From Diprion similis (taxonomy: Eukaryota; Arthropoda; Insecta; Hymenoptera; Diprionidae): a DNA stretch of 64,000 nt. The stretch is from NCBI RefSeq assembly GCF_021155765.1, contig NC_060106.1, positions 18,564,031-18,628,030 of the forward strand. The letters run 5' to 3'. Below the pieces are notes generated by a model. It was given only the letters and a program-made list of their open reading frames with translations. It was not told where the DNA came from and did not search any database. This document shows positions 8,648 through 62,810 of this stretch, in pieces. The position numbers and the translations under genes are program-made. The first letter of the stretch is position 1. The number at the start of each line of letters is the position of its first letter.

Positions 8648-11600
8648 ATGCCAACGCAGACGGGTGACGCCGACAACGAGATACGAGTCAAAATTGTTTA
8701 CAATGGGTAACGCTCTTTCGTTTTTTTGTTGACTACTTCTTCCTTTCTTTCCGGTTTTTTTTTTTCACATTTTTTTGTCACACCAACAAAGCAACGTGCT
8801 GATAAAACTTTATCGCCGCATCGCCTTAACGTCGTTGTGTTTATTACATTGGCATGAAAATTTAACGGAGAAGCAAATTTATCTCCAATTTATGAAATAC
8901 CCAAAGAATATTCCATATTTTCAACGATATAATACATTGAGGATAAATAATTGAGCAGTTTTTTTTTTTTCTAGGTACCAAAGTATTTGTACATCGATTT
9001 TAAAATTGGTTTACTATAACACTTGGGCAGGCCAATTTCTTCGATGACTGTCATCATAGTCTCTTAATAGAATGAGCTGTCGTTTAGATTGTAGTGTGAC
9101 TCATTGTCAGTGCAGTATTGCGTTTGTCAAGAAATTCCCAGGTGGTGGTTTAAATAGGCATTGCATCGGAGCAGAGATAATTTATGTTTCGATGTAAAGA
9201 TCTCGTGGTCTCATTATCGGAATTTTCACTCTTTTGCTTTTTTGCGAAAATGGAAATAGATCAAGAAATTAGAAATATAGAGAGAACGAGAGAGAGGAAG
9301 ACAGAGAGTGAAAATTAAAATCAGAGAGCTGCCTTCTAATGGGAAAATCAGGATTTTCTCTGAGATATGTTACAACATCGAGTCATAAAAAAGTCGAAAC
9401 TTTTAATCACGATTGAAAATTTCAAAAAAAAAAAAAAAACCTATAAAATACCTGCTCACGAAACAAAGGATAATCGTTGCCTTTTTCTCGACAGTGAGGT
9501 ACAAATAACTTATGTGCCTGCGGGTACGGGAATGTCGGTGGACGCGCTCCGCGACGAAATGCGGAGTATTTGTGGGTTCGGAACGGGACCAGATCAGCTG
9601 CAGAACGATCAGTTCACGATGAAATGGGTGGACGAGGAGGGCGATCCCTGCACGATAGGATCGCAGCCGGAACTCGACGAGGCGCTGCGTCTCTACGAGC
9701 TCAACAAGGATACGGAAATCACGATACACGGTCAGTTTATCCTTTATCTCGCTTCACGCCGTGACCGCTGAACCCATTAAAAATGCATCTAGGCCACTTT
9801 TTCCCGCAGAAGGCCGGCGAAGGTCGTTTTTCAACGATAAGCACCGTCGTTCGTTGATTTCTTCTCTTTATTCCCCCCTCATCTTAGAGAGTAAAAGATT
9901 ACTCACCATCGAAGAATACTTTACACGTTAAAGTCTTACGCCATATGAAATGGTCATTTTTGTAATGAATTCATTCGTTATTTATCGCCTTTTTTTCAAC
10001 CTGCGATTGGGTCGTTTGATCTTTCACATATTTCTTTTTTATTTTTTCAACTTACATAAATGAATGAAAGCCGTTTCTATCTCTTTTATCTTTACTCTTC
10101 GTGCTTGTTACGCGAGTCGAGTGAAAAATCCTGGAATAAAGCAAAAGTAATCTGTGTAGAAATAGTGAGAGGAAAAAGATAAGGAATAGTTTGTCTTGTT
10201 AAGCAAACTTTATATACAATCCACCGGAAGATCGTGCAGGGCAATTAGTTTCGGGTCGTTTAGTGTCGCGTGACGTTGCACTCGATTTGACGTCACATCG
10301 CGATGAAGATGAGCACGCTGTGTTTACGGTGAAGAGGCTGTAAAGAGACGTTCATTTTTCTTTCTATCTTCGCACAATTTTTTCGTATCTACCGGTATGA
10401 ATCAAGAAGAAATGGTGAACTCGTGACTTTTTTTTTTTTTTTTTTTTTTTTTTGTAGCAGGTATTCGATAGGCATCTTGTTTCGTCGACTTTGTTGAAAC
10501 AGGTGTCAAAGTACTTTTCACTGTTTTATTCCTTCATATTTCTCTTGCATCCAAAAACCAAAACTGATGAAGTGAATGAAAATGTTGAATAAAATTCGAA
10601 CGAAACGAGTCTCACAAAATCTTGGCACAACAATAAATTTTCCCTGCTGGTGTTTACTTTTTCATTTGAGATTACTCAGTCTCATGAATAGACGGATATT
10701 TTAGGTATTGAGATTTTTTTTTATCCGGGACGCAAATAGCTGTCTGGCGAATAAATTTATCGATAAGATCGTTCGCCTGTCGTTGAAAAAATTTCATTGA
10801 ATTTCGTTTCCGTACACTTCGACTTGAATTTTACTCTGTTTTATTTATCCGTTCTCCTTTTCTCCTTACGCTTATACATATACGACTGTACGTACATGTA
10901 TAGTGTATACCTTATACATACACACCTATACGTATATATCATGGTGCAGAACGTGAATGCATGCGTTATATTTTACACGTTACGCTTACCTAACGCTAAC
11001 CGTTATTCGCTATACACATATCTCTACCGGTGCTGCCGAGGAGCGCGGACGGAATGTGTTTTAAAAGTTTAAAACTTACGTATATATGAATGTGGTGTAT
11101 GTTTATTTAACGAGCAGACGTCCAACGGCCGCGTTTCAACTTACATGGCCCACACGCTTCTCTCTCTTTCTCTCTCTCTCTCTTTCTCTCTTTTCCTCTT
11201 ATAATACTGAGTTGTTCGTTACCACATACATACATACATACATACATACATACATACATACATACATACATACATACATACATACATACATACATACATA
11301 CATACATGCATGCAACATGTACACGTGCTGTTACATATTCGAACAGCTGACTGAGGAGAATCGATTTTCCAGTAAAAACAAAGTGTGCCTCCTCATTCTC
11401 AAACTGACTACCGCCATGAATGAAAATGGGTGTTACGTATGTGTGTATATTGTATGTTTATATATATAATACATAGAGACTTATACATAGAATTATACAT
11501 TGTGTTGACCTACACACGTGTGCTTGGATAATAAATTGATCGTTGTTAATATAATTATACGTACGTATAATATGTTCATATAAACAAAGAAACTCTTTTT

Positions 11601-29600: not shown

Positions 29601-32600
29601 ACGACGCAATGGGAATGAAGCCAAAATAAATGTATGTATGTAACGCTAGAGCAGGATTCTGGGGGGAATCTGTACTGCTCTGGTGGCCACAAGAGTGTAA
29701 CAGAGACAGAGACAGAGAGAGGTCAGGGATGAATGAATGCAGGGAAGCTGCTGTGTGGTCAGGGTTACGGATCGATGCTTTTATTGCTCTAAATTTTATG
29801 GCCAAGTTTCTTATGCATGAATTTGTTGCTGCTGTTGCTGCTACTACTGCTGCTGCTGCTGCAATAATTCATAAACAAACTAGGAGATCCTGCTCGGTTG
29901 ATGCGATTGTAGACCCATTGCCACGGCGGCCACACCCTAAATTTTCAACCACCCGACCATCGGGTTGATTTTGATACATTGTCTTCGTATCTTGGAGATA
30001 GGAGAAAAGGAAGGAAAAATGATTCATGAGATTTCATGTCAAGAGAGAATTATTACGTAGGCAATAAAAGCGCGTGTTTGTATTATACGAGCGAATATCG
30101 TGAATTGACTTCTCAAGTTTTATAGACTCATGGAAAGTGAAACCGTTACTGAATTCTTCTTGCCATCATTTTAACTCGCATCAATCATTGCTCGACAAGT
30201 GCGGGTGATCTACGATTTTTTTTTCACTGTACAGGTTCGGAAAGTAATTGATTTTTCATAAATAATTGTATGATCGTTATTTTTGCTTTTAGAGGTTTTT
30301 TTTTCCTCAGCGTTCTGTTTACACTTCTTTCTAGAAGTTTGGTAGAAGTTAACAAACAAGAAAAAGCCCCTCGTTTTTAGCAATAAGAATTCTTCTCTTT
30401 TTTTGTTTCTGGTATTAATTGCGAACGTGTTGGAAATTCAATCACTGTGTCAGTTATGCCGGTGCACTAGGCAAATTATTGTATAATTTTATTTTTACTT
30501 CTGACAATTCAATAATAATAAATTTTTTTGTTTTTTTTCTGCTTACAGTTTTTCCAAATGTACCGGCAGCTCCAGGCATGCCCTGTCAAGGCGAAGACAG
30601 TAAGTATTTAATATCTAGACAAAACAGTATCAGTATCATAATATTTTTAGGTAGACGAAAATTTTGAAATGTTTTCAATATTTAGAAATATTTCTCCGAA
30701 TGAACGATGATAAACTTACGATTAGTGTGAATACTGGCATTTCATCTGGAATTGAATTCAGTCATTACGTTTAAACGTTCAATTAGTGAATTAATTGATA
30801 TTAATTTTTAAAGGAAGTATCTACAGGCGTGGTGCTCGAAGATGGAGAAAACTTTACCGAGTCAATGGGCATATTTTTCAAGCAAAACGTTTCAACCGGG
30901 TAAGAAGCACCTTTTCTTCATATGTGTATATCAAATTCTAATTCAAATTGGTTCGAATAATATTTTTTAGTACAAGAACTTAAAAAACAAACCATTAATC
31001 ATTAACGAGAATAAGCTATTTTTTCAATTGCAAATACCTCTTGAATTTCATCTATCAAATTTTAACTTTATTTTATATATTTATGTGGTTTTTCAGCGAG
31101 CATTTTGCGCGTTTTGCCAAGATCGTATCTGGGGTCTGGGACGGCAAGGTTTCAAATGCATTCAATGCAAGCTCCTCGTTCACAAAAAGTGTCACAAGGT
31201 GGTTGGCAAACCCTGCTTTAGCATGCAGGTACCCCAAACAACGGAACCACCTTCAACAGACAGAAACGGTGATCAACAGCAATCGGATTCTCTGCATTGC
31301 TCTCCTGCCGTCCCACCGGATGACGAATCTACAGAGCTGGCAGCGGTGGAGGACCATTCCCGCAATCGTAAGACTTTCTCTTCACTTTTGATTCTCAAAT
31401 TCGTTAAATTGTCGGTTTTTTGTAAGTAAAACTGAATAAGTATTAACTGGCTCATGATAATTACAGGCGCTCCGGGTGATGAGGGTGAAGAGTTACCATT
31501 GGAGGCTGGAACTGGATCGGATAACATGATCGAATTACAGAGGCAGTATTCGTTGAGTGATTTTGAATTGATCAGAGTTATTGGCCGAGGTTCTTACGCG
31601 AAAGTACTAATGGTTGAATTGAAACGTACGCGGCGGATTTACGCCATGAAGGTGATAAAGAAAGCTCTGGTAACGGACGACGAAGATATCGACTGGGTAC
31701 AGACGGAAAAGCACGTATTTGAAACGGCGTCGAATCATCCGTTCCTCGTCGGTCTTCATTCCTGCTTCCAAACACCGTCGCGCCTCTTTTTTGTCATCGA
31801 GTTTGTTCGTGGTGGCGACCTGATGTTCCACATGCAGAGGCAACGACGTTTACCTGAAGAACATGCTCGATTTTATGCTGCTGAAATCAGTCTTGCTCTC
31901 AACTTTTTGCACAAAAAGGGTAAAAGAATGTTTTCCATTTATTGGTATTTTCTTTTTTCACTGCACCTCCTAAGCGTTATTTTCTGGGCTAAGTCATTTT
32001 ATTTCTTTATTCTTACAAAAAATTGATGTTAGAACGACGATTCATTCATCCTTTAAATCACATTGAGGCATCGCATTGTTCAGTTAAGGTTTATTTACCA
32101 ATTCCATTGTATTGTTGTCCAAAACAGGAATTATTTACCGAGATCTGAAGCTGGACAATGTATTACTGGATCACGAGGGTCACGTGAAGCTCACCGATTA
32201 TGGAATGTGCAAGGAAGGAGTGAGGGAAGGTGACACGACGGCGACTTTCTGCGGAACGCCCAACTATATTGCCCCGGAAATCTTGAGGGGCGAAGATTAC
32301 AGCTTCTCTGTGGACTGGTGGGCTCTCGGAGTACTGCTGTACGAAATGTTGGCAGGTCGTAGTCCGTTCGATATTGCCGGGGCTTCCGAAAATCCAGACC
32401 AGAACACAGAGGATTACCTATTTCAAGTTATCTTACAAAAGACCATACGAATTCCGAGATCGCTCTCCGTCAAGGCAGCTTCCGTTCTCAAAGGATTCCT
32501 CAGCAAAGATCCTGCCGAACGATTGGGTTGTGGATCTTACGGATTCTTTGATATCGCTGGCCACTCGTTTTTCAAAGCCATTGATTGGGATATGGTATGT

Positions 32601-32987
32601 ATTCTTATAATGTAATTAGACTTTTCCAAAGGTTTGACTATGTGCGTCTGCGAATGCTAATTCAAATTACTATTGTCTGCTTACAGTTGGAGCAAAAACA
32701 AGTCACTCCGCCTTACAAACCGCGGTTAGACTCTGATAGAGATTTGGCTAATTTCCCACCGGAATTCACTGACGAGCCTGTTCACCTTACACCGGACGAT
32801 GCGTAAGTTTCCAGATTTTCATTTCGTTTGTCATCTTTCACTTCTCAGGTTTTGTGTTATTCACTTGAATATTCATTATTATTGTAAAATGTTATACAGG
32901 AGAGTGATCGATAAAATTGACCAGAGCGAGTTTGAAGGATTTGAGTACGTGAATCCGTTATTGATGTCGTTAGAAGACTGCGTGTGA
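8648..32987 (+). CDS. aPKC: Atypical protein kinase C (PB1, pseudosubstrate, C1, kinase), 608 aa
   Basis: Serine/threonine kinase of the Par-6/Par-3/Cdc42 polarity complex at the cell cortex. Nine coding exons: 8648-8706, 9495-9730, 30549-30599, 30814-30899, 31097-31367, 31467-31919, 32128-32594, 32687-32802, 32900-32987; every junction keeps frame and uses GT-AG. Order: PB1 (about 10-98), pseudosubstrate with RRGARRWRK (120-128), one C1 zinc domain (about 134-184), kinase from about 267 with GRGSYAKV (274-281), Lys296, YRDLKLDN (Asp391), the aPKC-typical DYG (Asp409) and activation-loop Thr425 in TFCGTPNY. The AGC tail ends [10 protein letters not shown], with Glu replacing the hydrophobic-motif phosphosite, as in all aPKCs. 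Length matches the fly protein (about 606). Intron 2 spans 20.8 kb and contains two candidate alternative first exons; the stop TGA is followed by C and a long in-frame open extension (separate entries). Confidence 0.96.
11224..11306. repeat. (ACAT)n microsatellite, about 21 copies
   Basis: A nearly perfect tetranucleotide array of 83 bp, followed by a short CATGCATG step and preceded by a CT-rich stretch at 11159-11192. Open frames through it (repeating Tyr-Ile-His-Thr) are artefacts of the repeat period. Confidence 0.95.
13988..14137 (-). other. Unexplained 49-aa open frame with coding-like composition, antisense inside aPKC intron 2
   Basis: Reads ATG (14137) to TAG (13988) on the minus strand and contains peptide features such as [16 protein letters not shown] and [13 protein letters not shown]. 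The stretch is clearly richer in G and C than its surroundings, has no low complexity, and its third codon positions favour G or C. An in-frame TAG lies just before the start. TGTTAG there could be a poor acceptor, making this the last exon of an antisense gene, or it could be a small ORF or a retrocopy fragment. I do not recognise the protein. Confidence 0.35.
14997..15622. mobile_element. MITE with long terminal inverted repeats and a 9-bp target duplication
   Basis: The left end begins TAGGGTGGCGC and the right end is its exact complement. The inverted match continues inwards for well over 100 bp, including a CGACTA block next to poly-A/T, a block with TGTCACACGAG-like sequence, and a GAGCCCACTCCAAAG block. 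Both sides are flanked by the perfect direct repeat ATATAACGG (14988-14996 and 15623-15631). The interior is AT-rich and encodes nothing, so this is a non-autonomous element. A 9-bp duplication fits Mutator-like elements best, with 8-bp-class superfamilies (hAT, P) as alternatives. Confidence 0.9.
16900..17653 (+). promoter_or_regulatory. CpG-rich promoter-like block upstream of an alternative aPKC first exon
   Basis: An abrupt island of G, C and CpG inside an AT-rich intron. It contains a GCTAGCT tandem (17000-17022), CCT and CGT trinucleotide runs (17352-17390) and a poly-pyrimidine acceptor (TTTTTTATTCCGCAG ending at 17653). It immediately precedes the 267-codon open exon at 18012. I infer an internal aPKC promoter with a 5' UTR intron ending at 17653. 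Confidence 0.5.
18012..18813 (+). CDS. Candidate alternative first coding exon of aPKC (replaces PB1)
   Basis: An ATG in good context (CCGAAATGG) opens 267 codons beginning [20 protein letters not shown]. The segment has a Gln-rich stretch (about residues 27-37), an 11-Ala run (about 87-97) and acidic Asp/Glu clusters, and lacks a domain I recognise. It ends at ATT G|GTAGAT, phase 1, exactly the phase with which aPKC exon 3 starts (G|TT TTT CCA). A second phase-1 donor lies 15 nt on (G|GTATAT at 18828). No other plus-strand gene follows before 57 kb, so splicing to aPKC is the simplest reading. The product would keep pseudosubstrate, C1 and kinase domains but lose PB1 and so Par-6 binding. 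Splicing is inferred, not observed. Confidence 0.6.
23519..24174. mobile_element. piggyBac-like MITE flanked by TTAA
   Basis: TTAA at 23519-23522 and 24171-24174 bracket 648 bp. The left end reads CCCCTTGAGTCACA and the right end, inverted, reads CCCTTTGAGTCACA. TTAA target sites and CCC-starting short inverted repeats are the hallmark of the piggyBac superfamily. The interior has no transposase frame but repeats a theme of AATCTGATTTCAGATTT and CCAAGATGG-like stretches in both orientations. It looks like an old non-autonomous copy. Confidence 0.75.
24677..24750. repeat. AT-rich palindromic TATA/CATA tract
   Basis: A run of alternating A and T with interspersed C and G (TATAATATACATATATAATA-like) that can pair with itself in several registers. 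It is ordinary intronic simple sequence; no function is implied. Confidence 0.6.
25698..25806 (+). CDS. Candidate second alternative first coding exon of aPKC (36 aa)
   Basis: ATG at 25698 opens a short frame beginning [20 protein letters not shown] and ending with GFNIHDQ, cut by donor CAA G|GTATAC at 25806. The phase is 1, matching aPKC exon 3. Third codon positions are C- or G-rich (AAC AGC, TTC AAG, GCC ATG, CAG GAC, AAC ATC CAC GAC) in a very AT-rich neighbourhood, which is typical of real coding sequence here. The peptide is compact and hydrophobic with two Tyr-containing turns; I do not recognise it. Like the exon at 18012 it would give an aPKC without PB1. It could also be an exon of an unknown nested gene. 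Confidence 0.5.
27291..27484. mobile_element. Possible small TA-flanked palindromic element
   Basis: The left end GGGGCATTCCGTGGCA and the inverted right end CGGGATATTCCATGTCA share GGG, ATTCC, TG and CA. TAT lies outside the left end and TAT outside the right. About 194 bp, AT-rich, non-coding. The ends match only about 12 of 17 positions, so this is either a degraded MITE or chance. Confidence 0.35.
28484..28507. repeat. (TA)n dinucleotide run
   Basis: Twelve or so TA units in intron 2 of aPKC; a similar TA run lies at about 28683-28700. Simple sequence only. Confidence 0.85.
29323..29343. repeat. Run of 21 G
   Basis: An uninterrupted 21-nt G homopolymer on the plus strand, inside aPKC intron 2. 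A second run of 13 G lies at 29581-29593 behind a GA-rich tract (29541-29580). Both can form G-quadruplexes, and both are error-prone in sequencing, so their true length is uncertain. Confidence 0.9.
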
Positions 32988-33395
32988 CAAGAGCCGCTAT
33001 TCTTCCTGCACCAAGAATCGCCACAACGTCGCTATTTACATGACCTGCAGGATAGATCAGATACGCTTCAGCTTCAGACTCTCCCTACCGCAACTTCGGA
33101 CTGCCGTCATCATCGTTATCGTAATCAAAATGACATGATCACGATGGAATTTCCACGGGAATTAAATACCAATGACAATAACTTCTTCGAGCATAGATTG
33201 GAGCCACCGTTTCCGTTTAGGTACAACGAACCGATCCTTACGCGGCGTCGAAGTATTGCCGATATTACTTGTGATAAAGGTAGCAGCAATAACAATGCGA
33301 TCGACAATTACGATGAAAATGATTATGACGACGTCGACGATGAAAGTCCGAGAAAAGGACTTTTGCAACAAATGTTCTGCCTTCCGTTAAACTAA
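32988..33395 (+). CDS. In-frame open extension after the aPKC stop (candidate stop-codon readthrough), 135 codons
   Basis: The aPKC stop is TGA at 32985-32987 followed by CAA. In the same frame the next 135 codons are all sense, ending at TAA (33393-33395); I read every codon. The extension starts QEPLFFLHQESPQRRYLHDL. It carries a His/Arg stretch (HHRYR), a basophilic kinase-like site RRRSIADI, an Asp/Glu-rich run (DYDDVDDESPRKG) and ends GLLQQMFCLPLN. It is less AT-rich than the 3' UTR beyond it. UGA followed by C is the leakiest stop context and the usual one in insect readthrough genes. The product would be aPKC with about 136 extra C-terminal residues. Alternative splicing past the stop is the other possible explanation. 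Confidence 0.55.
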   Translation, partial: QEPLFFLHQESPQRRYLHDLQDRSDTLQLQTLPTATSDCRHHRYRNQNDMITMEFPRELNTNDNNFFEHRLEPPFPFRYNEPILTRRRSIADITCDKGSSNNNAIDNYDENDYDDVDDESPRKGLLQQMFCLPLN

Positions 33396-35188
33396 AAAGT
33401 AATTATATTAATGCGCATTACTCTATAAATCTACCTATTATCAATAACCTGTTCTTCGGTCGTTAATCGAAACGAGTCCTTAGCTAGGTATGTTGTCTAT
33501 TTTCAAATTGGAATTGAAAGAGGTTCGATTTGACTGGTGCGGATCTCTAGTGTGGTGAGACTTAAAATTCATCAAATGGATGAAGGGACATTAACCAAAC
33601 GTACATACATATGGCATATTATACATAAATATAGATAAATTAAAGAAAAACTAATGAACCTCAAAATTGTAGTCAGCACGTACGAATTGAGTTGTTAAAG
33701 GTGATTTTTTGCGAATTTTAAAGAAGTATGTTTGATGATTATATAACTCGGAATGTGTATTCTCCGAAATTGAAATTTCAAGACTCTGGTTTCCGGATTC
33801 AAAATCGAATCCAAACCTGTTATGATTAGTTAATCAATATACGTAGGCATTCACCGAATAATTATCGACAGTCTCGAGCAGTACATTTGGATTTATAAAA
33901 GAAGTGAAGCAAAAAAAGATTACGAATATTTCTGCCTCTATTCTGCTAAAAAGTATTATTAACTATGTATTATGTAATTTCCGCTCTTGCGCTTGGCGTT
34001 TTAAACGAGCACCTCGAGTCATTCCAAAATAACTTGAGTGAAAATAACTACGAATGGAAGAAAAAGAAGAACGAGACATTACTCGTGAAAATAATAAAGT
34101 AAAAAACAAACAAAGTAGAGAGAAAAAGAAAACTTGAGAAAAAAAAACTGTTCATAGATAGCTTGTTAACTTGCATTGGTATAAAATAACCTTTCTTGAT
34201 CGTACAAAAGAAATGCAGCTTTTTAAACAATAAACATAATCCAGCGTACATCGACGCTACGGATATAGGTAACTCGTTAATTGAAGGGGCAAAAAGTGTA
34301 TGGTACATATGTAAAAGAAGTACGAAATCTAGAACTGAATAATAAATGCACTTTATTGTTATTGTATTATTACGTAAAGTATCAGATATATAAAGTAAAC
34401 GCTTACCTTGTAGGATTTGCAATGCAATCCAGATATAATGATTACACTAGGATAATTAATATATATATTGTACTACTAATGGCCTGATTATTATTATTGA
34501 TTAATGATTATGTACCCGGAATTGTATTGAAACGTTGCATACGGCCGTTGATAGTATTTTTATAAAGTCTAATTTATGTTTTCAATCGTTTATTATGATT
34601 ATAGATAATAGAGATCTTATATTGATAGAATAATTATTAGTACACAATATACATATACATTCTGGAGTCTATGCTAAAGTATTATATTACATATTATAAC
34701 TGAAGTCGAGACGCGTATTTGTTCCTCAGAGAGAAAAAAAAAAACCAGACAAAATAAAATCAAATTATAAGAAGAGACTAAACACAGCTAACGGCAGCAA
34801 ACCAACAATTAGTTATGGACAAACTGTAAATACTTTTCAGAGAAAATGATTAAAGAAAACGTTATAATAATATAAATAATATACTACCAATGTTCATTCG
34901 TCACCGAAGAAGAGATAACGATGTTGAATAATACTTGTCCTAGGATATATTTTAAAAGTAATAAATAAATTTAAAGAAAAAGTATTACAAATCCAGATTA
35001 TTACGATAATTACTATTATTACAATACGCAATATGAAAACTATACAAAATGCATAGGCAGGCTCAAGCATTTATAATACTACTACGAATCACCAACCTTC
35101 TGTATATAATATCTGTATATGTGTGTGTGTGTTATGTGTATATGTGTTGGCATATATACATAACCACAATATTATTATACCGAATAAA
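33396..35188 (+). terminator. aPKC 3' UTR and polyadenylation signals
   Basis: AT-rich sequence without exons after the aPKC coding region. Canonical AATAAA hexamers occur at 34960-34965 and 35183-35188 among others, consistent with a long 3' UTR and several possible ends. No other gene is supported here. Confidence 0.5.
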
Positions 35189-35383
35189 TAAAATATTATA
35201 CGATGCTAATAACAACATTAAACATTTCTGTTTACTTGTGTTTATAACAATCTGATCAAATAATCGAGGAGTAGATGCATTAAAAAAGAGGGATAAATCA
35301 AGATACACGGCTTTTAGACGAATCAGGAAAAACTCGCAAAATGCTTTCACAGGTTCGATCAAAAGCATCTCAAGTCTCAGATT

Positions 35384-35668
35384 CTAATTCTGTGCGTCTG
35401 CAAATATCAGCTGTCCACCATCTACCCCATCCGATTTATGCCAAAACGCCACCCGAGTGGGTAAGGTAGGGTGGTTTATTTCTTTTGCACTGCTGAGTTT
35501 GTGACTAGCTTTGCCTCTATCTTCGTCATCTGGGTGGTGTTTTGGAACACACCCTTGTGCCATGCATGCACATGCCTCGTGTGTGATCATATCGCCTGAA
35601 GGTATGCGCAGTTCGGTTTGAACCGTTCGAACCGGTAGAAACAGCTGAATCTGATTGAAGCGAAACAA
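35384..35668 (-). other. Unassigned open frame in a balanced-composition patch (94 codons, no ATG at its 5' end)
   Basis: A minus-strand frame of balanced composition, ending ...FADAQN, between the aPKC 3' UTR and the MADF cluster. Its first ATG is internal (about 35590). Flanking plus-strand sequence to about 35870 is also less AT-rich than its surroundings. It has no recognisable domain and no clear splice context. It may be chance, a non-coding RNA exon or an unknown regulatory patch. Confidence 0.2.
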
Positions 35669-36470
35669 GCGCGGGAGCCACGCTTTCGGTGCCGTGTGTT
35701 TGAAGTCACTTTATTCAAAGTCTAGCGTGTGGTTGAGTGTATTTATTCTGAAGAGTGTGTGTATTCGTGTCGATATGTGTATATAATAGTGTATGCAGTG
35801 AGGTATAGAAGATGGGACGCTGAGTCCGGCGAATTGCTGCAGATTGAACACCCTGCAAAAATTGAAGGTATTACATACTACGTTTAATTAAGTTTACACT
35901 CAATGCTATCGTAGAATTTTGGCTTTGTTGGGTTTGTCTGGCTACATTTGCGAGACATTTTTTCCATCATTTTCTGGATTAAAATGACCCGTTTATCGAA
36001 AGTTTGATTTCATCCATCACTGTATAGGTGATTTTCGAACATAACTATATGTGGAATTCAGCCTGTTGCCAACTTCACACTGAACACGTTTTGTTTACCC
36101 GACGTCGTTATAAAATTCAAATATTTGACATAAGTGTCAAATAATTGATTCTAATTTTGCCACAATATTTTTACGCTAGTAAAATGTGTTTAAATATTTC
36201 GGTAAAAACTATGTAAAAATTTTGAACTTTACAAAAACGATTCATTAGTTTTCTCCATAATTTACAATAATTATAATGATCTGAGACTTGTTTGCTCCAA
36301 TAATTAGACGCATTGAGTATTGAGATTCTGACAAATTACGGAGTTTTTATACTTCTCTCCTCCTCCAAATAACTTTCACTTATCAGATCTTGGATACGCT
36401 GTTGAAATCTTAAAGCAGCTTCTATAAAATAAAAATGAAAGCTTGCAAATAGTGATTATTATTATAGGTT

Positions 36471-36485: not shown

Positions 36486-39400
36486 TTACTGAATTATTTT
36501 TCGTTTACCTATAGACAAGCCTTGCAGTTGGGTTGCAATTGAAGTGGTAAATGCATCTATATTTATTTCTGTTGGCTGTCCACTGCAGCACCGATGCTTA
36601 GATTCATCATTTTCATGATTCTGTGCCAGTGGAGTTGAATTTAATTCCTCATCAATACTTTCATCGCAACTACTGCCATAGCTTCTTGTTTCTTGAACAT
36701 CGCAATATATTTTCTTTGAAGAATAATTCAAGGCTTTTATTACGTCCCTGCTTTCTTTGATTTCATTTAGTTCGTTGTAAGGTGTACCCTGATTTTCAAC
36801 AGAAATCATACTTGGGTTCTTAGATTTTACACGCTGCGTAAGTTTGGAAAACGGCCATTCGGATCTTGATATATTCAATTCACCGTTTTCACTAGCATCG
36901 TCAGCACTTGATAACAATGTACTGTGTGCAATTGGGATTATTAGAGACTTGCTTTGAAAGCAGGATTTGTTATCGTCTGGATGTACCTCTCGATTTTTCC
37001 CAGATGTCTGATTGCTTGTTTCTTTGTCTACAAACCTATCACTCATTTTTTCCATTGAACTGGGTTTATTCTCATAACTTAGCATAATCTCAGACCTGTC
37101 GATCAAAGTATGATTATCTTCGTCGATCCCTCCATCATTTTCAAAACTTCTTGTGGCCACAGTCACTTCCGAAGATTTGCATGACTCTCCGCATTGACTG
37201 TTTTCAGTGATTGGCAAATGCGACTGCCGTTCATTATCGTCTTCATATTTAAACAGGATTGACGTTCCATTTGCTTCTACAGATGATCTTAAATACTCAG
37301 GAGCTTCTTCGCTTAACTGTGTATGATTTTTTCTTGAAGAGTAATTGTTATTCTGATTCTGATTATTTATGTACTTGACTATTCCAACCAATTCCTCTCT
37401 AAGAACAGGATCCGTTACACGCTGCAAGCATGTTTCTATACTTTTTATTATAGTTTCTATTGTCATCGATTCCGTCCCTGTACACGAATTTATTTCCGAT
37501 AATGGTATCGCTTTATTTGCACAATCAACAGAACAATCATTCATTAACGCCTTGTGGGTATCACTTTGATTACCAGAATCTTCGTATTTTTTCGATAATA
37601 TTACCACATGCGGAGGAATCATATTACAAAGATTAAGATCTGAGCCACCTGAATTTCCTTGAAAATTTGTTGAGGCATTTTTTTTTTGTTCACTTAAAGA
37701 TTCTTTCTGATCTTTCGATACTTTAATTTCATTGTCATTATTTTCCATGTTCGGCTTTGAATTTGATGATTCTATTGTAGACGAAAAAATATCTTTTACA
37801 TTTTTTTGTATCAGTAGAAGTGTTCCTCGATCCGTCTCTGTCTGTTTTTTATTGATAGAATTTGGTGGAGTGGTTGCATTACCGGAATTCAGGTTTACGT
37901 CGTCTGTCATCGTGCATTTTTCTGTACTAGATTCAACAGCAGATTCCTCAAAGTTGGTTAATCCTAGTTTCTCTATATGTTTCGGTGCTTTTCTCAATTC
38001 AATTGAAAATAGTGGCTGCAGCATTTTTATTTCCAGCAATACGGATTCCTGTCGCAAAGCTGTCAGATCTAACGAAGTTGATACTAAATTCTTGGTAGTA
38101 CCTTGCTCGTCGGATGTTGTAATATTCGATATTGTAGTAGCAGAAGTATTTGTTTCTTTCTCTGCTATCTGCAAGGTACCGTTTAAATTTTGTCCAGGTT
38201 CTCTAATCTTTCCTTGAGTTTGCCGTTCAATCACGTTCCGTTCACTTTTCAAAAGCTCGGTCTGACAAGTAGCAGACATTGATTTTACATTTGCATCTCC
38301 TATTATCGCATTCCTTTGACTGGCTTTTCTATGTAACTTTAAATCCCTTTCAGTAATCACCTCTTCCGGCTGTCTCATACTTTCACAGTAACATGTATTA
38401 TCTGATAGAATATCACTATTATTAGCTAGTAGATATTCGTTCGGTGGTTTCATAATTGCACATAATCTGAGGCGACTGGTCACATCGCAAATTGGTGTAC
38501 ATATGCTGCTTGTGACATCTTTGTTACAGCAAGACTTGATGTGACTTTTGGCAGCGATTCGCAGTTTAGCTTCCAATAATGATCGACCTTTCTCAGACTC
38601 GTTACAACTCGTTATTACAGATTCATTTATCTTTCGAGTATCTTCAAGTTCTGTTAAACAAACAAAACACATTATCAATTGTTAAATATCTTTGGTGTTG
38701 TTACAAATCCGACGTATCTTTATCTAAACTGTTTCATACTCATTATATATTTTACCTAAACAACATGAGGATACTTTGCTGTGTTTCTCAGAGTCCGATA
38801 TGTCTTTTTGATTTATATTCATGTCATTCCTACTATAATTATGTTGTACATTTGATATATTCTTCAATAAATTTGCCTCCGACACTTGAAGACGCCCTTC
38901 ACTAAACGGTGAAACAATATTGTTTAGTATTTGTATATCGTCGGTACTATTACAGTACCAAAATTGTTTTTTTCCTGTTTCTGTCATAGTATTAACTGAG
39001 CAGGTTTGCTTGGGTGGGGCCGTCGAATACGATGCAGAATCTTTGTTCCCCTTGTCCGAATTTTGTAACATCTGAAGTTGTGTTTTGTGAAAATTTTTTT
39101 CGTGGTGCCTTTTAGGATTATCCAGACTTGACGAATTTCGATGTTTACCATGTAATTCTATCATCCCAGCTTCTACGTCAGATTCACTGAACGATTCCCA
39201 CTCACTGAAATCCATCTCGTCTCTACTCAAAAATTTGATTGAACAACTGCTCAAAGTACTATTGAACAGTTTATTTTCTTGATTCGTAAAAAACGAACTT
39301 CTGTTAACATCATGAGAAATACTTCTACAAAAATGATCATCACAGCTCGTTGCCTTTTGGACCTCTGTTTCATCATTTTGAGATATTTCTGTACATAAAT

Positions 39401-42400
39401 AAACGCTAATATCTTCACCATAAGATTGAGGAAAAATATTTTTTGCCTCGGTGAAATCATTCTTTGGATATTCTTGAGCATTGATCTGATTTTCTACAAA
39501 TTCTTCATCGTTTGACGCTGCATATTTCTTTTCTGGTGTTCTATTCTGCAGGAAAATATCATTTTTTTTAGGAATAGTATGAAATTTCCTTTCAAATTTT
39601 TCTAAATATTTCAATAGCTTCCGCAATCCATTTAAATGATCATTGTTGGATAAGACAATTCGATTAGCTTCATTAATCAAGATTTTGTTGGAGTATATAG
39701 GAACCATTCTTTTGCTTCTTTTAACATATCTCTTTATCAGATTTGGTAATATCTTGTTTTTCGATCGACTTTCTGGACATAATTTATGGAACAGGGCAGC
39801 AGAATTGGGACTATTGGTTTCTACATTGCAAGTTCTTTTTTCTGATTTATTAAGCGATTGCCTCGGTGTGATTTTATAATTATTCTTATCACTTTTTAAA
39901 ATGTAAGTACTAAAGTCTCTCCCTTCTTTTGGTCGTTTTTCGTCATCTTTTGCAAACAATTTGTGCTCACTCCTACTGCATTCAGTATCTTTAATTGAAC
40001 TATGTTCATTAGCGAATGCCTCACAAACTTGCAGAGGTGTGTTTTTGCTTATATTGTACTCGTTTTTTGTATTCAATTGTGATAAAGTTGAAGTAGCCAC
40101 TTCCGTAACTGATTCATCCATCACTGGCAAAATCATTGTTTTGACTTTGAAGGTAATTGGATTCTCAGTATTTTTTTTATTCATTAAATCGCCAACTATA
40201 TTTCTCAATTCTGTTTTCCACACCGTTTCATTCTCTATCACCTTACTACTTATTTCACCATTGCCACTGGTAATTAGACTCTTCTTTGAAAAAAAATTCT
40301 TGTTTTCAATTGCATATCCATTTTTATTTAAAGTTTTTTGGAGACAGTCTGTTATTTCTTTTACAACCTTATCTAACGCCGAGTTTTCTGTGCTTTCCGA
40401 TGCATTAACTGAAATATTGGTAGTTATACAATTTTCAACTCTCATTATATCTTGCAAAGCAGGATCTGAATTACAGATATTTGAATTACTCACTAGTTTC
40501 TCAGAATTATCTTTAGCCATCAATTCGCTTTGTTTCGTCTTTATTTTGCCACCTATTTCTATAGCTCGTAGATCCAAATCAGGGTACTTTTTGTTACTAA
40601 TACCTTTCGGTCGAAACGATTTATCCTTCATTCCATGTAAATTTGAAGCTTTGTAGCTTTTCGCATAGTTTATACATGACGATTGCGGATTCTCACACTG
40701 TGAAATTTTGCAAACTGAATGGTTTGAAATTGTTATTTCATTAGGTTGCATACATTTTATTTCAGGGATATTTTCTGGAGAATTTGTTTGGCACACTTTG
40801 TTACAAGATACTTCGACATTTCTTCCATTTTTTGCTATACCCTTATGCTGGGTAAACGAATTCGATTTATTCGTATTACGTTCGACACCAGAATCTGCGC
40901 CTGCCATCATTCTAAAACAGCGCAATTTTTTATGTGTTTTATTATCCCTATTATTTGATTGTACTGATTTTCCACATGAGATATTTTCTATATAATTGGT
41001 TTCACAAACTGAGGATCTGACTTTGCAGGGAATAATATTGCAACGTTCTGCGATTGGCTGACGCCAACAAATTGTTTTATTCGTAGGCTTTATCATGTGA
41101 TTTCGATATTGACCAGGATTACTTTCATTCACTACCGCTTTTAAATCTTCAGCCACTTTCTTCAGAATTAACCTTTCCTCGTGATCCTCCGTCGTGCCTT
41201 TACCTGGTTTGCTTAAGGTTTCGTCGATGAAATCTATAACAATTTTTGCCAACTTATACTTCATCATACTTTTCGATTTTTCTTTTAGATTCTCGGTATC
41301 TTCTACATTATGCCTTCCCTGGTTAAGATCATCAATCTTCTCTGAAAAACGTTTCTCGTTCAATACACAGTTCAATGCTTCTGACTTTTCTGACTGTCCT
41401 GAACTTAATTCTACTTTCAAATTTCCAGATTTAATATTTTTACCAACTTGATCATATTCAATTTTTCCTTGTGGACTTTCAACGGAAATATTCTCTTTTA
41501 TAAAATACCCATTATTTTCTGATGCTGTGGTAGAAACCTGATCTATCTCTATCTTCATATCAGCCATGGGTACATTTTTCTTTGACGTATTTTCATCTAT
41601 GATATCCACGTTACGTTGGTGGTTTGAATCAAGTGCTACAATTGGTTGCTTGGTATTCGTTAATGATTTCAAATCAATGCTTTGTTCGGATTCTAAATTA
41701 TCGTTAAGTTTCTTCAGGTTACTGTCGTTTGCCTTGTTACCGCCGGTACAATTTTCATTATGCTTGATATTCTTGCAAGTGGAAATTGGTGTTGTACCAA
41801 TCAAGCCTAATAAATTTTTAGCTCGTACTATTTTATCAACACTCCCCCTGTTTTTTCTAGATTTCTTTAATCTCCCTCTAATATTTCTTATTGAAACACC
41901 ATTTTTATTAGGTTGAGAGTTTGTAGTATTTGAATTAATATTAACAGCACGGTCTAGGATTTTCGGAGAACTATATTCGTCTGCTATTTTACTGTTCTCA
42001 TTGTTTTGAACAGATTTTGTGTTACATTGCACCGACAATTCTTCATCATCTTTATTATTTTGATAGTTTGTTTGTCGATTACTGGAACAGGACTTGAAAT
42101 TATATTCTTTAGGTGCTTCTAGTGTTGTGCTTTCGATGACATGGCTACGTCCATGCTTTTTCAAAGGCTGGGATACAGGAATTCGAACCGCAGAGTTTAT
42201 TTCCAATACGCCGTTTCTATAATTATACGAGGTCTTAGGCCGATAATCAATCTGTGATTGCGAAATATAGCTTTGGTTAAAATTTTCTGCACTACACCCA
42301 ATGTCATTGATTGAATGACAATTACAATAGCTATCCCTCAAAAATCCACAGGTAGGACAACAACTTATATGTTCATTCGGAACACACATGTCAACACAAT

Positions 42401-43084
42401 TTATTGGCACTATAGAATTTGGGTAGTCATCCGTATAATCTTCTTGGTTCGAATTTGGTATATATGGACAGATGGCGGTTGTCTCTCCATAAATCGCCAT
42501 AGATCTTTCTTGCAAATTTCTTCGAGCAAGTTCATCCCCCGAATTAAGTCGTAGGCGTTTTGGCACAGCCATAAGATTCAGACTGCGAGATTCTTGATTC
42601 TAAATGAAGTTGAAAATTAAACAATTAAATAATATTCTTAGTGACACGACAGACATCATTTTTAATCAAGTTTGTATTCTAACAAAGTTCATTCAAAAAA
42701 TATCATATTTCTATGTGACATAAACATGTGTTTAAAAATAAAAATTTTCCTCACCGCTTTTTCTTCGTCCCGAATAACTTTCGAGAACATGCTATTCATT
42801 AACGGATACCACAGCAAATTTGAATAGGCACGGCCTCCTAATAATGCAATGTTCTCTAATTTTTGCTGTTCCTGCTTATAAGTTTTACGGATGTATTTAA
42901 TCTGAATCAAGCATTTGTCAACAGTTAATCCAAAATCGTTCATTTCGCATAATATTTGAGAAAATGCGTTTGATTTTGCATCGTAGTTCTGATATTCAGG
43001 TGAATAAGGATTCCACAGGCATTCATAACTTTTGTAAAATCTTAAAAATTTGAACAGCTTTGCTTCGCTCCATTGATTAGACAT
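36486..43084 (-). CDS. MADF-domain gene A: giant low-complexity protein, about 2112 aa
   Basis: Three coding exons join in frame: 43084-42755 (phase 0 donor GCG|GTGAGG), 42599-38756 (phase 1 donor TTA G|GTAAAA) and 38650-36486. Residues 8-100 form a MADF-like (Myb/SANT-related, Adf-1 type) fold: aromatic FLRFYKSYECLWNPYSPEY, a central helix with IKYIRKTYKQE, and a closing LLWYPLMNSMF. MADF domains bind DNA or mediate protein contacts in insect transcription regulators. A Cys-rich patch follows at about 178-205 (CVDMC, CCPTC, CNC), then a basic stretch RGRLKKSRKNRG, a likely nuclear signal. The remaining 1900 residues are Asn/Ser/Lys/Glu-rich and predicted disordered, with scattered QTE/QTD motifs. 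The 3.8-kb second exon without a stop shows the frame is maintained. Neighbours B and C on the same strand are paralogues. Specific function unknown. Confidence 0.8.
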
Positions 43085-43766
43085 TTTTTCTCCGATCGAT
43101 GATCCGCTATGTGTTAATAATGCGAAATGGATTACAGGAGTTAGTTTGTTCCAAATTTTTAACCCAATTGTGAGTTACTACTAACAACTCTTCAGATTTC
43201 ATAATAATTGTAAAATATTAACGGTCTTGGGCATGCAGAATATAGGTCAATCATTTATGGCCTAGATACAATATACATCCTGTAATTATTTAAATTTGTG
43301 TACCTTTGGTTTGAATTTATAACCAGAAATGTCAAAATGACATTCTGTCAAGTTGTTTTTACCATACAGTTTGATTTACTTATTTTGAACACAATACCCG
43401 TAACAATACTCAGCAACATTTTTCTAACAAGAATCAATCTAACTCCGCTTCGCTTATTTTTTTCATTTCTAGGTTGATCAACCTGCATAAAACTCAGTAT
43501 CATTGGTTTATACGTTATTGAGATATGAAAAAACTTCTATGCAATGAACTTACCGATCATACATAACATTATTTACTGACTCATATGTATATAGTTGGAT
43601 TTATTTTTAAATTTCATATTTAGTTTATAAAATTTTAATGAGAGCTTATAAAAACAGTTTCAAATATTTTCACAATCCTTGCTTTAGTTTTGAAATATTT
43701 CGCTGTTCGAAGTGTGGCTGGTACGTAATTAATGAACAGTTACCCCATTCTCTGGTGTAACGGAAG
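43085..43766. other. Intergenic spacer between MADF genes A and B
   Basis: AT-rich sequence holding the 5' flank of gene A and the 3' flank of gene B. I see no further coding exon; the promoter of gene A must lie in or near it. Confidence 0.5.
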
Positions 43767-46700
43767 TCAACAGATGTTGGTAATGCTGACAGGATATACA
43801 TCAGATCTCATCATCTTCGTCTGTAACAAAAATATGAGAATGATTTATTCATGGCAACACAGTTAGGCTTGTTAACTATAAAAAAATAAAAACAAAAAAA
43901 CAGATTAAAACGTACAAATGTCGTGAATCCGTTGATTTTCTCGGTTGTTTGCAGCATTCGTTGTTTCCTAGAATCATAAAGATGAGAATGGATTCCTACC
44001 GGTATATTTCGATTTAAATGCATTCGAGTGTTTATGCATAATCGATGCGAACCGTTTTCCTTAGGATGTAGCATTTGATCCATCATTATTGTATATTTTA
44101 CAACATCTAAGAAATCTTTTGCTAGTTGGCTTGCAGCTAGAGTCTCGCTGATGTTCCGGGATGACGAAGGAATGGGTTCATTTCCACCAAATTCACTTGT
44201 ATAATCAAGAACTGGACCGGATATAGAGTTTGATATATTCGAATGATCTGGAAGTGTATTCTGCAAAACGTTCCTGGCATTTCTTTCATTTGTTGGTTCA
44301 TTTATTTGAGTTAATCTAATATCTGTTTCATTGGTTGATTGGTTTTTTTCAGTCACAACTTCAGGGTTTTGTTTGTTTCCACTAGTATCATTATTTACTA
44401 CATAATTGACCCCTTCTGGAAAGAGGTACATGGTCCTTTCATCTTCCAATATGCTGCTAAGACGAATAGGTCCTTCGATGGGAGACTGTGGCCTTAAATT
44501 TTCAGTCGCATCATCAATCTCCACTGTCTTGGTAGGTGAGTCTAGAACCATTTTTTGTCAGTTCAGATATATTTCTTATCTTTGAATCTGCCATATAAAG
44601 TTGAATAATTAAGTGTCTACACTAAGATGCCGAAAGTCTAAATGTTGGCATCAAATTGAAATTTCTGTTGTACCTCGATACTTCACAGAATAATCTATTC
44701 GCCTATCTAACTATATGTCTATCGAAAAGTAAACAACATTGGGCATGATTAGGGAGAGCATTATATTCGTCCTATATTAGTTATACATATTCTCACCTTG
44801 TGAATTTTTCTTTTGATCCTGTTTACTCTTAGACGGTTTGTCGAAAGGAAGCAATTGATACTGGGTGCTCTCCATCGTAATATTATCAAGCACAGCATCT
44901 TCTAATTCATTATCATTACTCTCCTGGTGTCCTACAGTGGCTGGTGGAAGTGTTGCTATTTCTTGAAACGTGTCAAGCATTGTATTTAAAGTTCTTTGCA
45001 AGTTTATCGGTACTTCCTGTGTGCTATCAGCTTCTAATATTTTTACAATAACATTCAGTAATATCCTCGTATTATCAAAACTCTCCGCTGGCAATGAGCT
45101 ATTCTTAATTTCTGGGCGTGCTGTACAGCACGATGGTTCTTTGCTTACTGGATCATCATTCAATTCATGTGAGTATTGATCTATCGGAAGTTCATCTCTA
45201 TGTAGAGTTGGAAGTGGTGCAGCATTATGGCGTAGTGATGTGGTCATTGAAGAAACGTCTTTGTTATAAACAGATTTCGAACGATTCGGTTCCCCTGTTT
45301 GTACATCTGGGATTGTCTGGATTATTTCATTTTCATAAGATGTATCAGTCTGCGTACCCTTACTGGTAGATGGTTTATGCTGTACTCCAATTTTCGTGAC
45401 ATCTTGATGCTGAGAGTCATCTTCGGATTGCTTTTCGCAGGCAGTTCTTGCGGTACGAATCCGTTTCTTTGCATGATTGTGCCTGGAACGTCCATGGTTT
45501 ATGTCCAACTTAATAACATTGCTATGTCTTGCCGAATCCATATTTACATTTCTACTTGCTACATGTGTATCGGTTTTACACAAGCATTCAAAAGTGCTCA
45601 TTGCTTTTTTTTCACTCTCATGTGAGCACAACATAGACTTCGATAGTTGTCGATTGATCGCACTAACTTCGTATCCAATAATTTCTAGATGTTGATCCTC
45701 GTCATCTGAATTTGGGATAATGATTGTAAATCGTGGGCAGACTTCATATTTATCTTCTTCAGATGTGATTGGTAATACTGCAGGCCTAACTCCGTCGAAT
45801 TGCTGAACGGATGCATTATACCTGGTAGGAGACACATTATCATTCCCAACTATGTCGTCAAAAAACTGTGCTGCTCTCTGTGACTGCTGATTAAATGCGT
45901 CTTGGTAACGAACCATATTTGGCGTAGGTTCATGGATATGATGGCTAGTTCGATTTATTTCAAAATTGGGCTGGATGTGTTCCAAATAGTAGCTTTGAGT
46001 ATCATGGGCAATGTAACTTGGATGAGTTGCAATATTGTTTCCAAACTCTTTTTTACTTCCGGGACAGTGAACATAATTAATTTCTTTTGATAAAATATCG
46101 TCTGCTAATTTTACTGCTTTGATATTATCTTGATATGTCGTATCTTCTGTATCTTCGAAATTTTTTTGTCGAGTAGAAGCACACTTTCCTCTATAATTTT
46201 GCATTGGGTTAGGATGATCTTCATGGATTTCAACGTTTTTTTGAGATTGAGTAACATCTGTTTCCTGTATTTGAGTTTCCCTACTTGAATAGTTAACTTT
46301 CTTGCCACACAAACGTGGAGGATTTGTTTCCTCAACCAAATTTTGATCGGCAAGTTTTGATGAATTTACTGGAAAAGTTCTCTCAGTTTCAGATTGAATT
46401 TCGGTTCTGCTCTCTTTACAATTATTAAGTTCATATGTTCTACTGTGTGACTCGGCCTGACTTTTTTCTGTTTCCCAACCACAGGATCGACATTTGTTAT
46501 GCTGATCATTTTCATCATCACCTGGTTTTAATTCACCATGCAAATTAGCATTTTGACGCTGTGCTTTTGGTTTTTCGAATCCTGCGAAAAATTGATATTA
46601 ATCTGACGTATACTACCAGTCACGGAATATCTATTGAACACGTATTCCTAAACTTTTACTGCTACGTCAGCCACTGTATGATACCTGAGTGTTTGAGCTC

Positions 46701-47330
46701 CTCTTCAGTGAGAACTGAGGTGTTGGAATCATTCTTTTCCGATTTGCTTTTAAAATTTTTTTCATAGTTATCTTTTGAGATAAGTTGCCCATGCTCATTG
46801 AATGTTCGAGAGTGTTTGGTGCGCTTGCTCTTTGTCCCAGCACATGGAGCGAATTTTACTGGATTTTTACTGAACGTTTCCTCATCGTTTATCACTTCGC
46901 ATAGCATTTGAGACATAAGATTAAACCATGGTAAATTCGAATTGTATAGATTTCCAGATTTCAGTTTCTTTGCAGCCTTTGCCTGTTCTCGTTTGTATCT
47001 AAATAAATAAATTTGATAACTTTAGTTATTTCAAGCTGGTCAAAAAGTATCACACATGGAAAATAAAAAAAACATTGATGTAATCCTGTTAAGCTCATGT
47101 GTAAAACCGGCGTCATCCTGACTTTACTTTTCCCTTATGACTTCAATTTGTTGCAAGCATTCAGGCACTCTGATGCCGGGGAAATTTAATTCCTGTACAA
47201 CAGTTTTAAAGGCTTCATTTTTAACAGCACAGTTCCTATAATCATAAGAGTACGGATTCCAAAGACATTTATGTTTTCGATACAATGTCAGGAACTTTTC
47301 GGTCAGTTTGTCATCCCATTTGCTCGACAT
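43767..47330 (-). CDS. MADF-domain gene B, about 993 aa
   Basis: Five exons inferred: 47330-47128, 46998-46685, 46581-44797, 44541-43916 and 43820-43767. The first four join in frame with good donors and acceptors. The last junction (TTT|GTACGT to TTACAG|ACG) is the weakest; a variant donor would instead end the protein HEDDEI. The MADF-like domain is residues 8-98 (FLTLYRKHKCLWNPYSYDY, then REKYKREQAK, closing PWFNLMSQML), interrupted by a phase-2 intron not present in genes A and C. Next come a basic patch (SKRTKHSR), CRSCGW, a Lys/Arg cluster (AKKRIRTAR) and KGTQTD. Most of the rest is polar and low-complexity; the third exon has several Asn/His/Asp-rich patches. It is the middle of three tandem genes, with 251 nt between its start and the end of gene C. 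Function unknown. Confidence 0.75.
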
Positions 47331-47581
47331 ATTTCATTATGCTTGCAAGTCGGCTCCTAAAAGTCTATGGATAAATAACATTTCGTATTTGTTGTGTTAC
47401 AAAATTTTTTTTTTTTAATTTAGAATATTGTTAGTTTTCAAAATAGAAATGCCGAATTATGACAGATTTGGAATAGGTTGTAAATTACAATTGAATACAG
47501 ATATCCTGTGTTTTCCATTGCATATCATTACAGCTCATTTTTGGTAAATATTAATAATCATGGCGGATAAAATAGTTACTT

Positions 47582-49227: not shown

Positions 49228-49855
49228 TATTTCAGATGCAAATATCGGCTGTAAGTTAATGAAAATAAATCCCACGTCCTCACAACCTATTGGAATAGAT
49301 TCTCAAGCATGTTTTTCTGATTCAAATTACTTCGTGGTATTCTACTGGCGATGGAATTATTTATTAATCATTGGGTATTTACAACTTGGTATAACATCAA
49401 TACTTCGTTGCTAATTTATATAAAAATTTTATAATATTAATAGTAATCTGTAAATATTCTTCAAAGATTTATCCAAAGATGAATCGAGGACATTGTAAAT
49501 ACTTACTGCTATGTGCTGTTATACTACCAGTAATTTTATACTATAAATTTATATTCTGAGAAATGACTGGTTATCAATTCCGGAAAATCTGTCAAACAGA
49601 TCGATTTATCAACTTGAAGTAGTTAATTCCTATTTATGATCAAATAGAACAAAAATTTTACTCACAGTTATTTCAGAACCAATTCATTCATCCATTCACA
49701 TGTGTACATGCTTTTATTTTTTAAGAAAAGCTAATAGCTGGTTGTGCTCTGTAGTCAACATTGTTTCCCATGCAGTTATTTTAATTTGGCACAAATTTCA
49801 ACAGTCATATATAACTGTGTACATTAATATAGGCGCATACGTACACATTGTATAA
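49228..49855. other. Spacer between MADF gene C and GCAT
   Basis: AT-rich, without open frames of interest. It carries the promoter side of gene C and the 3' end of the GCAT gene; no other feature seen. Confidence 0.5.
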
Positions 49856-57368: not shown

Positions 57369-57701
57369 ATGGGGGGCCATGATCATCACAAACCATACCA
57401 TGTCCCAGACCACACTGTATACAAACTAGAAAATGCACCTGAATTGATAAAGGTTCAAGAAAAATTGGCACAGGAAGGTTTGAAGGATCCTTGGCTGCGG
57501 AATGAAATTTGGCGTTACGACGTCACGAAGTGGGGAACATTTTGGGGACGTGGCTTCCGCTATGCAACGTGTGGTTTTAAATTGGGTATTCCATTGTTTC
57601 TCTTGACGATAGGACTCGAAAAAGCTTTTGGAATCGAATATGGCCATGGCCATAGCCATGACCATGGCTCACATGATGGCGAACATGATAGTCATCATTG
57701 A
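57369..57701 (+). CDS. NDUFB3: NADH dehydrogenase (ubiquinone) 1 beta subcomplex subunit 3 (B12), 110 aa
   Basis: Small accessory subunit of mitochondrial complex I, in the membrane arm. One coding exon. The start is MGGHDHHKPYHVPDH at 57369, immediately after a splice acceptor; the open frame continues upstream but that part is intron. Family features are the His-rich N-terminus, LKDPWLRNEIWRYD and the single membrane segment FKLGIPLFLLTIGLEKAF (about 74-91). The C-terminal tail is unusually His/Gly/Asp-rich (GHGHSHDHGSHDGEHDSHH), a little longer than the human protein (98 aa). An AATAAA signal lies 29 nt after the stop. Confidence 0.93.
   Translation: MGGHDHHKPYHVPDHTVYKLENAPELIKVQEKLAQEGLKDPWLRNEIWRYDVTKWGTFWGRGFRYATCGFKLGIPLFLLTIGLEKAFGIEYGHGHSHDHGSHDGEHDSHH

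Positions 57702-58376: not shown

Positions 58377-62810
<4,434 letters not shown>

Follow-up and report, generated by a model that had tools for sequence, protein, structure and literature searches.

Possible stop codon readthrough of atypical protein kinase C in Diprion similis and the predicted burial of its PDZ-binding motif

Introduction

Translation past a stop codon is known from a number of insect genes, of which hdc and kelch are early cases. The present work is concerned with a 64,000-nucleotide stretch of the genome of Diprion similis (Hymenoptera, Diprionidae; assembly GCF_021155765.1, contig NC_060106.1, positions 18,564,031 to 18,628,030 of the forward strand), referred to below as the window, in which the gene for atypical protein kinase C (aPKC), a central cell-polarity kinase of animals, ends in a TGA that is followed in the same frame by 135 sense codons, and which may hold a further case of this kind. 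Insect readthrough candidates preferentially carry a TGA with C as its next base, and they tend to have long first open reading frames (ORFs) as well as more and longer introns (PMC5100048); in the bumblebee there are 851 candidate readthrough stops, of which at least 306 are estimated to be functional, the estimate making use of TGA-C enrichment (PMC7826183).

The readthrough genes of insects (Drosophila, Anopheles, bumblebee) share with aPKC the leaky TGA-C and a coding-like second ORF in the same frame, and they are likewise regulatory genes with a large intron, in aPKC a presumed one; however, hdc has a fold after its stop, whereas no fold of note follows that of aPKC. Judged from the features of a single genome, aPKC appears to behave like the known insect readthrough genes, and its membership among them is partly supported. 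The stop codon of mammalian aquaporin-4 (AQP4) stands in the context UGA-CUAG, a motif that has been given for four human genes, which are left unnamed. The similarity of the readthrough form AQP4ex to the case described here lies in the fact that the normal end of the protein, SSV, serves as a PDZ ligand for alpha-syntrophin, and that readthrough adds further residues behind it; it differs in being another protein, in the shortness of its extension (29 residues, as compared to 135 codons in aPKC), and in that this extension is crucial for anchoring, whereas for aPKC a loss of anchoring is predicted (PMC6444679). Human PKC iota resembles the protein studied here in its kinase domain and, from end to end, in its C-terminal tail, and a PB1 domain is present in aPKC; the difference is that 135 more in-frame codons follow the aPKC stop. 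The names aPKC and PKC are absent from the main texts of PMC5100048 and PMC3840789, the supplementary candidate tables of which were outside the scope of this comparison, and the name aPKC is absent from the parts of the text of PMC7826183 that were covered, its supplementary candidate tables again being outside the scope; PMC4528329, in the parts drawn on, names aPKC for alternative exons and not for readthrough. Full-text literature searches gave no title or abstract opening on aPKC readthrough, with supplementary lists, which may well include aPKC, lying outside their scope. Insect readthrough itself is known, and these results suggest that aPKC as a possible case of it is new within the literature searched.

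Results and discussion

The aPKC gene and its conserved protein end

The aPKC gene lies on the + strand of the window. Its exons, the two stop codons and the sequence elements to which reference is made below are as follows.

9364..9771, + strand: open frame with the PB1-domain exon of aPKC (Pfam PB1, E 5.2e-7); frame bounds, not exon ends
30550..30599, + strand: exon whose first base completes a split codon (joined open frame, GT-AG introns)
30814..30899, + strand: exon with a stretch that we take to be pseudosubstrate-like (joined open frame, GT-AG introns)
31097..31367, + strand: exon with a cysteine-rich, C1-like stretch (joined frame; C1 judged by eye)
31467..31919, + strand: kinase-domain exon (joined frame; kinase motif judged by eye)
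32128..32594, + strand: kinase-domain exon (the 223 C-terminal residues, joined across exons, match PKC iota in the PDB at E 4.9e-120)
32687..32802, + strand: exon (PKC iota alignment; joined frame)
32900..32987, + strand: last exon, TGA included (PKC iota alignment; joined frame)
32973..32984, + strand: codons of the predicted C-terminal PDZ-binding motif EDCV (aligned to EECV, the C-terminus of human PKC iota)
32985..32988, + strand: TGA stop and the next base C (codons GTG TGA CAA)
32988..33392, + strand: 135-codon in-frame extension (open frame, coding composition)
33205..33221, + strand: potential acceptor of a rival splice form, with its AG ending at 33220 (score 6.3; keeps the frame when joined to the donor after 32802)
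33393..33395, + strand: second stop, TAA (coding score at background beyond it)
34093..34346, + strand: AATAAA hexamers at 34093, 34229 and 34341, possible poly(A) signals (~0.7-0.95 kb past the TAA)

The seven exons from 30550 to 32984, when joined via their GT-AG introns, form one stop-free frame up to the TGA at 32985-32987. The last 223 residues encoded by them can be aligned over their whole length with human PKC iota (5lih), whose PDB chains stop at the same residue as aPKC does before the TGA; none of the 10 PKC iota sequences among the matches listed extends beyond this residue, and two of them stop earlier. The end of the protein is conserved, at the level of the residue, to human PKC iota, and because the human protein ends at the same residue, the TGA appears to be a genuine and old protein end rather than the result of a sequencing error or of a shifted frame. 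Between the PB1 exon and position 30550 a large intron of ~20 kb would be present, if this interval is without further exons. Besides the AATAAA hexamers listed above, an ATTAAA at 33161 sits within the extension. If polyadenylation takes place at this site, the resulting transcripts will be without the second stop, and readthrough on them would be non-stop translation.

The open frame behind the stop codon

In the original prediction for this locus, which was made from the sequence alone, a TGA-C was described as being followed by 135 sense codons in the frame of the last aPKC exon, up to a TAA at 33393, and this description is exact. The context GTG TGA CAA is, as had also been claimed, typical of insect readthrough, in the candidates for which TGA-C is favoured (PMC5100048). 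The further claim that so long an open run is improbable by chance agrees with the results of simulation, in which a frame remained open for 135 codons in 14 of 20,000 sequences shuffled from the extension itself with its dinucleotides preserved (1.2e-3 when calculated from the mean stop rate), and in 0 of 6,000, 0 of 6,000 and 0 of 20,000 trials with the compositions of the 3' untranslated region (3'UTR), the extension together with the 3'UTR, and the aPKC introns, respectively. However, because an earlier reader chose this stop from the whole 64 kb window, the per-gene chance has to be scaled up by how many genes were scanned. Across 264 kb of the same genome, real genes included, 27,402 stop codons were counted, 76 of them with at least 135 open codons behind them. 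Read in its five other frames, the extension stretch contains 3, 16, 5, 9 and 5 stops, and in the 269 Mb genome the extension matched a single place, viz. its own locus. When related sequences were sought in viral and genome contig collections, both for the extension and for an aPKC kinase exon, none of use came up, the genome contigs yielding only two kinase loci in bacterial metagenome-assembled genomes (L046 and L047).

Coding composition of the extension

For assessment of coding character, 31 coding stretches (9,672 codons) were compared in training with 169,568 bases of the same genome taken as non-coding, among which there may be short unrecognised exons. Ten of the training ORFs were chosen by eye from 19 non-overlapping ORFs of at least 180 codons; their status as genes is assumed, with a Pfam match found in two of them (288-1514 and 58924-59604) and none over the cut-off in the three longest. 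The remaining stretches are from 21 of 24 other loci; the three left out, by manual choice, were L037, L041 and L043. Among the 31 stretches, L035 and L044 were probably taken on the wrong strand, which should merely blunt the model. The classifier, based on phased mono- and dinucleotides, reached a cross-validated area under the curve of 0.93 at 135 codons, and as stops were taken out of its input, openness is not directly counted by it.

The codon log-odds score of the extension is 0.098 bits per codon. This value is matched by 1.3% of 3,756 non-coding windows and by 12 of 2,000 shuffles of the extension, and it falls at the 56th percentile among 142 coding windows kept out of training; past the TAA, the stretch in the same frame is at background (its value is reached by 56% of non-coding windows). 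The comparison codon score of the aPKC kinase exon, in its correct frame, is 28.6 bits. The classifier gives the extension a score of 2.70, matched by 1.05% of 856 negatives and higher than that of 88% of 98 coding windows kept out of training (85% when the folds were changed), as compared to -3.39 and -4.11 for the +1 and +2 control frames and -2.05 for the stretch past the TAA; the aPKC exon at 31467 scores 1.25 in frame (register 31469). Among 151 unseen ORFs of at least 100 codons with a GC content of 0.36-0.52, a range of our own choosing, the extension comes third, and the two above it are open frames from aPKC itself, viz. those with the PB1 exon and with a kinase exon (32088-32612); the ORFs at ranks 4 and 5 are presumably nicalin exons. 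The signal is strongest in codons 91-135 (classifier 3.97, matched by 0.2% of 3,158 negatives) and lower in codons 46-90 (0.34, matched by 14% of the same negatives). When only the window and the neighbouring genes, a set that includes assumed genes, were used in training, the extension was again coding (0.3% of negatives reach its score), and the score of codons 1-77 was reached by 1.2%. Overall, the composition of the extension appears coding-like, with a signal that ends at the TAA, that is weak in codons 1-45, and that is absent when training is limited to the genes for ABC transporters and Headcase, a set consisting mainly of one protein family. The dependence of the coding signal on the training set is real.

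Probable readthrough and the points that weigh against it

The open frame, its codon composition, the loss of signal at the TAA and the TGA-C context, all seen in a single genome, favour a protein-coding extension in the aPKC frame, as readthrough would predict, and we regard functional translational readthrough of the aPKC mRNA as the best explanation and as reasonably probable. A minority of ribosomes would decode the leaky TGA-C via a near-cognate tRNA and would terminate only at the TAA, 135 codons further on, and the product would consist of aPKC, one residue at the TGA and 135 further residues. We infer from these features that aPKC may be translated past its stop, that readthrough would be the route, and that the PDZ-binding motif would thereby be buried. 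The earlier proposal of aPKC readthrough is partly supported by the four features named here, whereas the weakness of codons 1-45, the one training set that erases the signal, and the acceptor at 33220 tell against it.

A number of other results also weigh against readthrough. Across a large scan, a chance of about 0.1% per gene cannot be neglected, and the ranking of the 151 ORFs is not a clean measure, because aPKC's own open frame 31436-32023, which combines exon and intron sequence, comes no higher than 24th in it. Codons 1-45 are weakly coding by the classifier (-0.30, reached by 27% of the 3,158 negatives), and their codon score was matched by 1,427 of 2,000 shuffles. A score restricted to synonymous codons is unremarkable: it is matched in 9% of the non-coding windows, the +1 frame is about equal to the extension in this regard and one reverse frame is higher. 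With the ABC-transporter and Headcase training set, the extension falls among the negatives (24% reach its score, and 4.4% of positives lie below it), and codons 1-77 are in the middle of the negatives (55% reach). A Pfam scan of the extension gave no domain over the cut-off; a DOMON match was rejected (E 0.0055, 17.3 bits vs a cut-off of 32.7). The RNA fold after the TGA, predicted from the single sequence, is no better than that of shuffles (z -0.71 and -0.25), and no CAGCAGCA 8-mer is found within 32700-33400; RNA structure and this 8-mer are present in just 9% and 23% of published candidates (PMC5100048). Further, in a single-genome test (Jungreis 2016) no abundant readthrough was seen in Apis, possibly due to incomplete annotation.

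Alternative explanations for the open frame

If the extension is reached by alternative splicing rather than by readthrough, then this will chiefly involve the donor after 32802 and the acceptor at 33220, and the product will carry the kinase tail up to ...PDDA followed by YNEPILTRRRSIADI...CLPLN, with FEGFEY...EDCV being lost. This acceptor is the most serious rival, because it roughly coincides with the onset of the strong coding signal: the codon score of the part after 33220 was matched by 2 of 2,000 shuffles, as compared to 474 of 2,000 for codons 1-77 before it. The acceptor is in frame, and its score of 6.3 lies within the range of the six aPKC acceptors (3.5-6.8), where the splice-site weights are approximate textbook frequencies. 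However, AGs with such a score are not rare in the window (90th percentile 5.4, 95th 6.9), and splicing to 33220 leaves 77 open codons unaccounted for, the classifier score of which (1.15, with the full training set) equals the median of coding windows and is reached by 4.5% of 1,699 negatives. A weaker in-frame AG ending at 33196 (score 3.9) could serve in place of that at 33220, which is less likely, and the use of either one would remove the conserved tail FEGFEY...EDCV. Less likely, too, is the excision of the TGA with a small intron internal to the last exon: an AG at 33050, which pairs in frame with donors in this exon, scores 7.7 and thus above every aPKC acceptor, but the donors before the TGA score at most 3.0, whereas the six aPKC donors score 3.4-9.6. 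Taken together, splicing is in our estimate quite unlikely. It may also be asked whether the frame is simply an unusually long open stretch of 3'UTR, untranslated and coding-like by accident. The finding was picked out of many stops, codons 1-45 are weak and the signal depends on the training set, all of which are in keeping with chance; however, both the openness and the codon composition lie in the tails of their distributions and the signal ends at the TAA, and we hold an accident of this kind to be unlikely.

Reinitiation at an internal ATG, at 33135 or 33144, would give rise to a separate peptide of 86 or 83 residues. In-frame ATGs are present at both of these positions, and also at 33372, and the stronger coding signal is found downstream of the first two; however, an internal start leaves the openness of codons 1-49 and the match to the aPKC frame unexplained, and two out-of-frame ATGs (33040 and 33130) lie upstream of those at 33135 and 33144, so that this course is very unlikely. 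Lastly, the UGA, being the codon for selenocysteine, may be recoded, or A-to-I editing by ADAR may convert it to UGG. The results obtained make either event extremely improbable, as the SECIS families gave no match at E up to 5 within 32600-36400, the nine genome matches to tRNA-Sec all fall short of the gathering score of 47, the highest reaching 43.1 (53 of 11,439 candidates scored), and neither an inverted repeat with arms of at least 14 nt spanning the TGA within 31400-34400 nor a notable fold is seen. Two Hymenoptera examined for this are without selenoproteins (PMC2500217).

Predicted consequences of the extension

The residues EDCV at the end of aPKC are predicted to be its PDZ-binding motif for Par-3. 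A canonical PDZ ligand requires a free carboxyl end, and as readthrough would put 136 residues directly behind EDCV and bury the motif, the extended aPKC should bind Par-3/Bazooka less well. The extended protein would keep its kinase, its PB1 domain and its Par-6 contacts, and one mRNA would thus supply two pools of kinase, viz. one that Par-3 can recruit and a minor one that is uncoupled from Par-3. The burial of the motif, which formed no part of the original prediction, may be the main consequence of the extension. The PDZ2 and PDZ3 domains of Par-3 each bind the aPKC PDZ-binding motif (PMC9352551), whereas the binding between the Par-6 PDZ and the kinase domain does not require this motif and may be weaker without it (PMC11774777); the part that the C-terminal motif plays in the recruitment of aPKC by Par-3 is a subject of current research (PMC9352551, PMC11774777).

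The extension is rich in charged and polar residues and is disordered by composition (Uversky H 0.371 vs a boundary of 0.437). The sequence RRRSIADI, an acidic run and a hydrophobic end, to which attention had earlier been drawn, are all present in it. Of the accompanying suggestion that RRRSIADI forms a self-phosphorylation site, the presence of the motif stands, whereas the assignment is a motif match and carries no statistical weight. The end LQQMFCLPL resembles a nuclear export signal and fits a class 1b pattern, but it was rejected as evidence because 0.89 such matches per 135 residues are expected by background, as determined from the rate in 9,672 training residues. Regulation through RRRSIADI or LQQMFCLPL is speculative. 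In its fullest form, the proposal is that readthrough of aPKC acts as a translational polarity switch, by which the motif would be capped in a fraction of the kinase that Par-3/Bazooka cannot recruit and that would remain competent for Par-6/Cdc42, with its localisation governed by the phosphorylatable RRRS and the export-like end; this proposal is tentative and on the whole doubtful. If it is true, insects could divide a single kinase, at the level of translation, between a pool bound to Par-3 and a pool free of it; if the extension reflects no more than splicing or neutral leakage, it is a commonplace detail of annotation. The interest of the case hinges on the identity of the protein as aPKC and on the buried motif.

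Other features of the window and the genome

A scan of 33380-33400 for bacterial promoters and terminators is uninformative for an animal gene, and a mir-297 match at 35115-35168, outside the extension, was rejected (28.5 bits vs a gathering score of 90 in Rfam) and is possibly a simple repeat. On the - strand, an exon of a SKI/SNO homologue is present at 288-1514 (Ski_Sno_DHD, E 5.3e-45; c-SKI Smad4-binding, E 3e-37) and a meckelin exon at 58924-59604. The NDUFB3-like gene on the + strand (NDUF_B12, 57213-57701) ends in TGA-A, after which just 9 codons are open, in contrast to aPKC. Within 36489-49302 on the - strand there are open frames with MADF domains (42692-43174, E 7.4e-11; 48838-49302, E 2.1e-7), beside which lie AT-rich open frames of 1291, 731 and 606 codons with no Pfam domain over the cut-off; these are perhaps fast-evolving tails of MADF-type regulators. 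Elsewhere in the genome, 13 of the 20 ABC-transporter matches are located within ~170 kb of one contig (G000:C10:7505538-7674724), in what is apparently a tandem expansion.

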